Origin: Alphaproteobacteria bacterium Ga0077535
GTDB lineage: Bacteria > Pseudomonadota > Alphaproteobacteria > Caulobacterales > Aquidulcibacteraceae
Assembly (NCBI GenBank): GCA_001464425.1
Contig: LNEK01000004.1
Span: forward strand, 1-64,000
Direction: 5' to 3'
DNA length: 64,000 bases
Positions within the stretch are counted from its first letter, which is position 1. Each line of letters opens with the position of its first letter. Of this stretch, positions 10,073-60,053 are shown piece after piece. The notes beneath the pieces are model-generated. The model was not told the DNA's origin, searched no databases, and saw only the letters and a list, made by a program, of their open reading frames with translations. The position numbers and the translations under genes are program-made.

Positions 10073-10122
10073 CCACACAGTTCACGGGCGGAGGCTTCGG
10101 TCTCCGCCCGTGAACTGTGTGG
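10073..10122 (+). terminator. Long perfect hairpin after clpP-like gene
   Basis: A perfect 21-bp stem (10073-10093 pairs with 10102-10122) with an eight-base GC-rich loop, 25 bases after the ClpP-like stop codon. There is no T-run after it, so it may act as an mRNA 3' stabiliser or a weak terminator in either direction. From here to 10345 I see no gene. Confidence 0.55.
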
Positions 10123-56651: not shown

Positions 56652-56751
56652 GCAAACACCGACCTAAATCCGCCCGTTCCATGCACAATAGAGGCTTTCA
56701 TCGCTCCAAATAGCACGGAAATTGCGCCGGAGCGCGGGTATTCTTGCGCCG

Positions 56752-58830
56752 ATGAGCGCCAAATCAAAGCCCGCCCCGAAAGCCCAGACCCAGACCGACT
56801 GGAAACAGGTGGTCAAATTCGTTCAGTGCTCGCGGGCGATGGACGAGATCGAGGAGCGTGAGCTCGTTCCGGGCAAGAAGATTTTCTACCAGTTCAGCGC
56901 GCGCGGCCACGACATGGCGCAGGTGCTGCTAGGTTTGCACCTGACCCATCCGAAGGACGCGATCTGCGGCTATTATCGCTCGCGCCCGATCCTGCTCTCG
57001 CTCGGCGTTGCGCTTGAGGACGCGTTGGGTTCGGCCATGGGCCGCGCTGGCGGCTATAGCGACGGGCGCGATATCGGCGTCGTGTTCAATTATCCAAACG
57101 CACACGGCGCCTCGGCGCTGCCGATGTGCGGCGGCGTTGGCGCGCAATACACGCCAACCGCCGGCTATGCGCAGGCGATCCAGTATCAGACGAAGGTGCT
57201 CGGCGATCGCGCTTATGATGGCGCAATTGGTGTTGTGCTTGGCGGCGATGCGTCGGTGGCGACGAATGGCTTTTGGTCGGCGCTGACGATGGCGACGACG
57301 CTGAAACTGCCGATGCTGTTTTACATCGAGGACAATGGCTTTGGCATTTCGACGCCGGGCTGGCTGCAGACGCCAGGCTGCAACATTGCGAAAAACCTGG
57401 CGAGCTTTCAGGGATTGAAGGTTCTCGATGGCGACGGGACCGATCCCGAGGAAGCGGCGTTTCTGATCCGCGAGGCGGTTTCGCACACGCGCGGCGGGCG
57501 TGGGCCGGTTTTGCTGCATTTGGCGGTCCCGCGCCTGCAAGGGCATTCGTTTCAGGATACGCAGGCGTACAAAAGCAAAGAAGTTGTCGACGCCGAATGG
57601 GCGCGCGATCCGTTGCCGAAGCTGAAGGCGCATGTCGTGCCCGATCTCATGAGCGAAGCTGAATGGGATGCGGCGGAGGCGGAGGCAAAAGAGTGCGTCG
57701 CGCGCGCCGCGCAGATTGCTGATCAAAGGCCGGTGAGCGAGCCCGCGCAGGTGACGCGCTTTGTGTTCAGCGAAAACGACGCTCTGCAGGACGAAGGCGG
57801 GCTTTGGTCAAGCGGCTATGAAGCGCCGCGCGCGAGCGACGTGGCAAAGCCCGAAGGCGCGCGCATCAATATGATCACCGCGATCCGGCGTACGCTGGAT
57901 CACGAACTCGCCGTCAATCCGCGCGTGCTGGTGTTTGGCGAAGACGTTGGGCCGAAGGGCGGCGTCCATGGCGTGACGCTTGGCTTGCAAGAGAAGTACG
58001 GCGTCGAGCGCGTATTCGACACATCGCTTTCGGAAGAAGGCATTATCGGCCGCGCCGTGGGCATGGCGATCGCCGGGCTGATGCCTGTGCCGGAGATTCA
58101 GTTCCGAAAATATGCCGATCCGGCGTGCGAACAGATCAATGATTGCGGAACCATGCGCTGGCGCACGGCAAACCGGTTTGCGGCGCCGATGGTGGTGCGG
58201 ATGCCGGTCGGGTTCTTCAAATGCGGCGACCCTTGGCACTCGCAAACCAACGAAGTGCAGTTCGTGCACAGCCCCGGATGGCGCGTCGCCTGCCCTTCCA
58301 ACGCGGAAGATGCGGTGGGTCTCTTGCGCACGGCGCTGCGCGGCAACGATCCGGTGATGTTTCTCGAACACCGCAACATGCTCGACGCCGCGAGCGCGCG
58401 GCGGCCGTATCCGGGAGACGATTTCGCGCTGCCGTTTGGCATGGCGAAGCGCGTGCGCGAAGGGGATGCGCTTAGCGTGGTGACATGGGGCGCGATGGTT
58501 GAGCGCTGCGAGGCGGCGGCGGAAATGGCCGGCGTGAGCGCCGACATTATCGACCTGCGCACGCTGGCGCCTTGGGACAGCGAAGCTGTGCTTGCGTCCG
58601 TGCGGCGCACACATCGCTGCTTGATCGTGCACGAAGATATCCGCACAGGCGGCTTCGGTGCTGAGATCGCGGCGGTCGTGGCGGATGCGGCGTTTCTCGA
58701 TCTCGATGCACCGGTCGCGCGGCTGACGATGCCGGACATCCCCTCGCCGCATCATCCGGACTTGATGGAATGGGCGCTGCCGTCGGTCGAGCGTGTTGCA
58801 GCGAAGATGCAAGAGCAGGTGCGGTTCTGA
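56752..58830 (+). CDS. Branched-chain 2-oxoacid dehydrogenase E1, alpha-beta fusion
   Basis: A 692-residue protein that fuses both E1 chains. Residues about 30-330 are the alpha part with the thiamine site (GVVLGGDASVATNGFWSALTMATTLKLPMLFYIEDNGFG, key motif GGDASVATNGF). Residues about 370-690 are the beta part (RVLVFGEDVGPKGGVHGVTLGLQEKYG, EIQFRKYADPACEQI). It decarboxylates branched-chain 2-oxoacids. The ATG at 56752 was preferred to a longer frame. The stop codon overlaps the E2 start (TGATG). Confidence 0.92.
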   Translation: MSAKSKPAPKAQTQTDWKQVVKFVQCSRAMDEIEERELVPGKKIFYQFSARGHDMAQVLLGLHLTHPKDAICGYYRSRPILLSLGVALEDALGSAMGRAGGYSDGRDIGVVFNYPNAHGASALPMCGGVGAQYTPTAGYAQAIQYQTKVLGDRAYDGAIGVVLGGDASVATNGFWSALTMATTLKLPMLFYIEDNGFGISTPGWLQTPGCNIAKNLASFQGLKVLDGDGTDPEEAAFLIREAVSHTRGGRGPVLLHLAVPRLQGHSFQDTQAYKSKEVVDAEWARDPLPKLKAHVVPDLMSEAEWDAAEAEAKECVARAAQIADQRPVSEPAQVTRFVFSENDALQDEGGLWSSGYEAPRASDVAKPEGARINMITAIRRTLDHELAVNPRVLVFGEDVGPKGGVHGVTLGLQEKYGVERVFDTSLSEEGIIGRAVGMAIAGLMPVPEIQFRKYADPACEQINDCGTMRWRTANRFAAPMVVRMPVGFFKCGDPWHSQTNEVQFVHSPGWRVACPSNAEDAVGLLRTALRGNDPVMFLEHRNMLDAASARRPYPGDDFALPFGMAKRVREGDALSVVTWGAMVERCEAAAEMAGVSADIIDLRTLAPWDSEAVLASVRRTHRCLIVHEDIRTGGFGAEIAAVVADAAFLDLDAPVARLTMPDIPSPHHPDLMEWALPSVERVAAKMQEQVRF

Positions 58831-60053
58831 TGGCGGAGACTGCGAACATCATCGCGCCTGTCGAGCAGGAAGGCACGAAGTCCGTCGTGCGCGCGTGGCT
58901 GAAGAAAGTCGGCGACGCGGTGAAGCAGGATGAGCCGCTGGTTGAGCTGGAGACCGATAAGGTCGCGGTGGAAGTTTCGGCGCCGGCGAGCGGCGTGCTG
59001 TTGTCGACTGCGTTGAACGAAGGCGATGAAGCTGGGCCGGGTGTGGTGCTTGGGGTGCTCTCGGTCGGAGACATGCAAGCTTCGACGGACCGCCGGCTTC
59101 CAGCCGGCAACACCGCCAGCGATCACGCACTGCCAATCGTAAACAAAGAGCCGGCTGGAAGCCGGCGGTCCTCGGAGAGCGCTCAGCATGAGCAGCGCTT
59201 ATCGCCGCTGGTGAAACGATTGGTGTCCGAGCATCGTCTTGACGTTGGTGCGATCGCCGGCACCGGACGCGATGGGCGGATTACGCACAAGGACGTTGAA
59301 GAGCACGTTGCGCGCGGGCCTGGGAAGCCGGTGAGCAAAGCGCCGGCGGTACAAAGTGGGAAGATTCCACACGACGCGATGCGCAGGTCCATCGCGGAGC
59401 ACATGTCGCGTTCGGTCGCGCTTGCACCGCACGTGACGGCGGTGTTCGAGGCAGATTTCAGCGCCATCATCGCACATCGCGCCAAGCACAAGGACGCGTA
59501 TGCGAAGGCAGGCGCTCAACTCACCTATTCGGCGTACATCGTGCGCGCGGCGGCGGAGGCGATGAAGGTGTCGCCGAATGTCAATGCGCGCTGGCATGAC
59601 GATTTTCTCGAAGTGTTCGAGGACGCGAACATCGGCATGGGCGTGGCGCTAGGCGATAAGGGCCTGATCGTGCCAGTGATCAAGCGTGCGCAGACGCTGA
59701 CGTTACAAGAAACCGCGGCGGCGCTGACCGATGTCACCGAGCGAGCGCGCAAGAACGCGCTAAAGCCAGCCGACGTTCAAGGCGGCACGTTCACAATTTC
59801 AAATCATGGCGTCTCCGGCTCGCTTGTGGCGACGCCGATCATTATCAACCAGCCGCAATCGGCAATTCTTGGCGTCGGCAAGCTGGAGAAGCGCGTCGTT
59901 GTGCGCTCCATCGACGGCGCCGATGCGATGGTGATTAAGCCGATGGCGTACGTATCGCTCACCATCGATCACCGCGTGCTCGACGGGCACCAAACCAATG
60001 CCTGGCTGACGCGCTTTGTAGAGATTCTCGAAACTTGGCCTGCAGGAGACTGA
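58830..60053 (+). CDS. 2-oxoacid dehydrogenase E2 acyltransferase with inserted palindromic element
   Basis: A 407-residue E2. Residues 1-80 are the lipoyl domain with Lys44 in ETDKVAVE, about 122-160 is the E1/E3-binding domain (LSPLVKRLVSEHRLDVGAIAGTGRDGRITHKDV), and 185-400 is the catalytic domain ending in HRVLDGHQTNAWL. The linker (residues 86-114) is coded by an inverted-repeat element in frame. It accepts acyl groups from the fused E1; a stand-alone E3 is not in the window. The start codon overlaps the E1 stop codon. Confidence 0.93.
   Translation: MAETANIIAPVEQEGTKSVVRAWLKKVGDAVKQDEPLVELETDKVAVEVSAPASGVLLSTALNEGDEAGPGVVLGVLSVGDMQASTDRRLPAGNTASDHALPIVNKEPAGSRRSSESAQHEQRLSPLVKRLVSEHRLDVGAIAGTGRDGRITHKDVEEHVARGPGKPVSKAPAVQSGKIPHDAMRRSIAEHMSRSVALAPHVTAVFEADFSAIIAHRAKHKDAYAKAGAQLTYSAYIVRAAAEAMKVSPNVNARWHDDFLEVFEDANIGMGVALGDKGLIVPVIKRAQTLTLQETAAALTDVTERARKNALKPADVQGGTFTISNHGVSGSLVATPIIINQPQSAILGVGKLEKRVVVRSIDGADAMVIKPMAYVSLTIDHRVLDGHQTNAWLTRFVEILETWPAGD
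59087..59171. repeat. Perfect palindromic element inside the E2 gene
   Basis: Two 22-bp arms (59087-59108 and 59150-59171) are perfect inverted complements separated by 41 bases. The whole 85-bp element is read through in the E2 frame as an interdomain linker (residues 86-114). It resembles REP-type or RPE-type elements that have entered genes at sites where extra residues do no harm. Confidence 0.9.

Follow-up and report, generated by a model that had tools for sequence, protein, structure and literature searches.

Palindromic repeats in coding regions are usually viewed as scattered, tolerated accidents. The closest described systems are REPINs, TIRtrons and the palindromic elements of Rickettsia. 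REP doublets or REPINs consist of two short hairpins arranged head to head, with the tetranucleotide GTAG at the hairpin foot; they are mostly intergenic and accompanied by RAYT genes (Bertels and Rainey 2011, PMC3116915). TIRtrons or TIRYTs are RAYT-like genes bounded by inverted repeats, the arms of which are also dispersed as dimers (Di Nocera et al. 2013, PMC3733652). CGTC-tagged repeats have no known transposase, and the recB genes of Xanthomonas campestris and X. oryzae carry different REPs at approximately the same place (PMC3733652). Rickettsia RPEs, of which RPE-4 and RPE-6 are CGTC REPs, are palindromes read in frame as protein and tolerated by proteins that still function. Intragenic REPs and their tolerance in flexible regions are already known.

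The palindrome studied here is located in the window, the whole 64-kb stretch of DNA that was analysed, within an open frame for a 2-oxoacid dehydrogenase acyltransferase (E2, 407 aa; 58830..60053, plus strand), the start of which is overlapped by the end of a fused E1 gene (56722-58830). Pfam models Biotin_lipoyl, E3_binding and 2-oxoacid_dh delimited a lipoyl domain at residues 13-76 (58866..59057, plus strand; PF00364, E 1.1e-13), an E3-binding domain at residues 124-157 (59199..59300, plus strand; PF02817, E 4.1e-11) and a catalytic domain at residues 178-402 (59361..60035, plus strand; PF00198, E 2.2e-64). As the preliminary description had stated, perfect 22-bp inverted arms enclose a 41-bp core between the lipoyl and E3-binding domains: the left arm GGACCGCCGGCTTCCAGCCGGC (59087..59108, plus strand) and its exact reverse complement, the right arm (59150..59171, minus strand), are 100 % complementary and separated by 41 nt (59109..59149, plus strand). 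The reading frame 58830-60053 is open across the palindrome, which is in frame, corresponds to residues 86-114 and supplies 29 of the approximately 47 residues of the interdomain linker, wholly within the Pfam domain limits. The description had the core read as protein, and the core is indeed in the translated frame, but so are both arms. Structural modelling (mean pLDDT 62, a modest quality) predicts a disordered linker, with pLDDT values below 50 for residues 83-120.

The left arm forms a small hairpin (GCCGGCT-TCC-AGCCGGC) with the 5' foot GGACC, and the element has the architecture of two REP-like mini-hairpins, head to head. The element strand folded with -61.1 kcal/mol as RNA (z -9.8 versus shuffles) and with -36.3 as DNA (z -8.1 versus shuffles). 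Further arm copies were not detected elsewhere in the 64-kb window, even at three mismatches, and two arm matches occurred in 0 of 100 shuffled windows. An Rfam comparison gave no match above the gathering score, only sub-threshold microRNA matches. Elsewhere in the window, at 10073-10122, a perfect 21-bp inverted repeat with an 8-nt loop and without a T run lies directly past a gene end, perhaps a terminator or attenuator.

Apart from one gapped single arm, no second match to the 22-mer with up to two mismatches was present in the own genome; sister-type arms lay at a few places. Within 1.25 Mb of this genome, seven long inverted repeats were present, and only that of the E2 was inside a predicted gene, according to home-made gene calls. 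A Y1 transposase gene was not detected in this genome (no PF01797 match). Lacking both the transposase and a second intact copy, the element's mobility in this genome is therefore history. In the family, the arm was found in 34 of 60 genomes, from one to about 170 times with two mismatches allowed, and a reversed-pattern control gave no match across the same 60 genomes. Within the genus, in which the arm is dispersed, matches ranged from none to about 170 per genome and were mostly intergenic where checked. Most of the roughly 170 matches in genome G056 were a variant, GGACCGCCGGCGTCCCGCCGGC, in which a paired change keeps the mini-hairpin; about 33 were of the window type (A). Among about 30 window-type elements read in G056, only the E2 copy and perhaps one more were clearly coding. 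In-frame members of the palindrome family or single arms were also observed in a LeuRS (L052, G013), an AlaRS (L053, G028), an APH-family kinase (L069, G047) and a methylmalonyl-CoA mutase (L076, G054); some of these proteins are essential. G033 and G050 share a protein without Pfam match in which a type-A palindrome holds the same position (L057, L072). The LeuRS palindrome of G013 takes up a variable loop that is about as long in relatives, and this loop looks replaced.

The E2 orthologues of 28 genus members, one of them the own genome, were read; most are 70-84 % identical. Palindromes were present in 22 of the 28 linkers and belonged to several sorts: A (nine linkers), B (two), B' (two), C (five) and D (four); six congeneric linkers had no recognisable palindrome. 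Type A is the RAYT-linked type of the window; B, which is read in a different frame from A, and B' are RAYT-linked as well. C and D are CGTC-tagged repeat pairs in two orders, with arms dispersed in all five genomes tested. The two B' linkers, of G041 and G048 (L089, L103), have near-identical arms and 13-nt cores that seem unrelated. Some congeners have extra palindromes in the second E2 linker, between the E3-binding and catalytic domains (L086, L088, L098, L105). A tree built from neighbouring genes and the E2 minus its linkers required 11-12 changes of palindrome type, and sister pairs with 100/100 support differed in their palindrome: G039 (A) and G044 (D), G059 (C) and G057 (B), G049 (D) and G037 (B). 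This number of changes is not a number of insertions, since linkers may have been exchanged horizontally (G057/G037). In many pairs, among them G000/G031 and G000/G043, type-A cores resembled one another more than shuffles did, which suggests from sequence that type A is old in the genus. One linker sort common by descent and without dispersed copies, the opposite of what had been proposed, was not found in the relatives. The claim that the element adds about 29 residues was not supported: measured between fixed anchors, palindrome-bearing linkers had 32-48 residues and those without 35-40. This is suggestive of replacement of linker rather than added length, and palindrome-less linkers may be decayed elements. 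Neither a clean empty site nor a target duplication was found for the E2; palindrome-less linkers do not align as empty sites.

Thirty family loci with a Y1_Tnp gene were inspected, and in most of them inverted repeats flank the gene. The RAYT unit L117, from a sister genus, has the terminal repeat GGAGCGCCGGCTTCCAGCCGGC, which agrees with the window arm at 21 of 22 positions; this was the best match, and an exact terminal counterpart of the A arm was not found among the 30 loci. Units L111 and L115 are bounded by the B arm, as in the E2 linkers of G057 and G037, and L127 by a 29-nt B' arm, as in the linkers of G048 and G041; the G048 E2 has it again as a 28-nt arm. By sequence, at least three linker palindromes have ends in common with RAYT units, exactly or nearly so, and we infer that RAYTs moved the palindromes. 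The presence of RAYT genes does not track the arm copy number across family genomes. Other RAYT genes (L109, L121, L126, L137 and others) are bounded by diverse self-complementary terminal repeats, e.g. GGAGCGCGGGCC..., and the RAYT-bounding repeats of this family form a rich set of TIRtron-like types. Neither the turnover of several palindrome sorts at one site nor the link to RAYT terminal repeats had been noticed in the preliminary description.

As in TIRtrons (PMC3733652), sister arms bound RAYT genes in relatives, and in these the arms shared with unit ends that mark a TIRtron-derived MITE were observed (A 21/22; B and B' exact or near-exact). Unlike TIRtrons, the copy in the window is coding, its site has been reused by other families, and a transposase in the same genome, the other mark of such MITEs, was not detected with PF01797. 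With REPINs (PMC3116915) the element shares two small inverted hairpins, short, 5'-footed and head to head, as well as dispersal, a mainly extragenic distribution and RAYT genes in relatives. It differs from them in the foot, GGAC or GGAG instead of GTAG (GGAC in the window), in the position within a gene and in a host genome without RAYT. The proposed likeness to Rickettsia RPEs, with a dispersed palindrome translated as part of a tolerant linker, is supported: the palindrome is in the translated frame and appears to be tolerated in the protein. Unlike RPE-4 and RPE-6, type A has no CGTC tag, which is present in the C/D palindromes of sister species. By analogy, the element would work like an RPE, but it is not one by sequence or tag. 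The rarity of such insertions outside Rickettsia had been overstated, for intragenic REPs, including those of free-living alphaproteobacteria, were catalogued in 2013 (PMC3733652). In contrast to the single pair of Xanthomonas recB REPs (PMC3733652), at least 11 changes are seen here in the genus, in addition to distant lineages. In the literature searched, no account was found of a single linker being refilled again and again by several palindrome families, with slow arms, in a genus and outside it; text searches with the arm sequence, or combining E2 and REP, returned nothing useful.

Probably, the element is a non-autonomous, REPIN/MITE-like palindrome, and mobile palindromes recurrently land in the E2 linker and replace one another there. 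In relatives, arms of the family recur, exactly or nearly, as the inverted repeats that end RAYT (Y1 tyrosine transposase) units. An ancestor of the genus probably received the palindrome in frame within its E2 linker, and it would have been kept because its arms lack stop codons in the frames read and the linker is disordered. Other palindromes, the RAYT-linked B and B' and the CGTC-tagged C/D, would later have taken the same place in sister lineages, a pattern that is itself observed and makes the linker a recurrent site. The mechanism may have been transposition in trans on single-stranded hairpins, presumably followed by deletions back to the normal linker length.

Arms and cores evolved at different rates. 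In nine type-A linkers, four-fold sites off consensus amounted to 4 of 100 in the arms and 456 of 1619 in the flanks (codon alignment), a comparison biased toward well-kept arms by the choice of linkers by their arms, with G058 possibly a decayed A. Six type-A elements of equal length differed pairwise at 5.9 % of the arm sites versus 53 % of the translated, fast-evolving core sites. The quiet synonymous sites of the arms are not explained by constraint on the protein. The slow arms make possible the effect on translation or mRNA suggested in the preliminary description. Selection of the hairpin, re-insertion or conversion could each account for arm conservation. Possibly the arms are kept alike not by selection at the E2 but by dispersed copies, through repeated re-insertion or through gene conversion, although we regard this as somewhat doubtful. 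Tens of copies exist in several congeners, and between the B' elements of G041 and G048 most of the 13 core sites differ but only 1 of 56 arm sites. However, arm decay was not lower with more copies, being absent in G000, which has no other copy, while G056 shows four arm mismatches despite about 33 type-A copies, and the cores look common by descent.

It is unlikely that species swapped E2 linker segments horizontally and that the patchiness stems from this instead of new insertions. The non-sisters G057 and G037, which differ at 8 of 108 linker sites versus 41 % of the flanking four-fold sites, are consistent with such an exchange; it would not account for how several families came to occupy the site, nor for the other families outside the genus. 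Equally unlikely, in our judgement, is selection of the hairpin itself, in which a stable mRNA (or DNA) hairpin after the lipoyl domain would slow ribosomes or affect the message, and any strong palindrome would suffice, so that one mobile palindrome could replace another. The quiet four-fold sites, the slow arms, the perfect arms of the own genome despite no other intact copy and the strong folding in most linkers of the genus argue for it. Against it stand the six congeners without recognisable palindrome, the favouring of well-kept arms by the classing, the E2 of OGDH, which manages without a palindrome, and the arm mutations, which affected mostly one arm only; compensatory changes were not seen by eye. 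Its furthest extension, that unrelated mobile palindromes were swapped in as functional equivalents and REP-type DNA was domesticated as a coding interdomain device acting on translation or mRNA, appears improbable. A linker of ordinary, non-mobile origin, palindromic through chance or codon bias, has nothing in its favour and is contradicted by the shuffled windows (0/100), the fold (z -9.8) and the identical arms dispersed in relatives, and hence hardly deserves consideration.

Within the genus, an inverted-repeat scan gave no palindrome within the gene in 20 OGDH-type E2 loci and one in 20 PDH-type E2 loci. A fold scan placed the strongest folding segment in the linker at z <= -3 for 10 of 27 E2 of the present type versus 0 of 84 of the OGDH type, a conservative count that misses several true palindromes, with a cut-off chosen after z <= -5 had proved too strict. 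It recovered one PDH E2 only, and the PDH comparison rests on the inverted-repeat scan; the species in both scans are related, and the counts are given without a formal test. Outside the genus, palindromes of other families occupy the same linker in sphingomonads and others, among them L236, L238, L242 (Sphingosinicella), L252 and L254 (Sphingomonas), with weaker ones in L235 and L259; they are judged to be mobile families by their look only. Linker palindromes were not evident in Phenylobacterium, Marinicaulis, Rhizobium and Paracoccus. A class-wide search yielded only two orthologues beyond the family.

Different mobile palindromes have refilled one enzyme linker, both within the genus and in other lineages, whereas the OGDH paralogue is free of them. 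The linkers with a hairpin, without one and with different hairpins form a natural series for asking if disordered linkers draw on mobile palindromes as raw material and if the translation of a modular protein responds to a hairpin between its domains. Mobile DNA would here be reused as protein at one particular spot.
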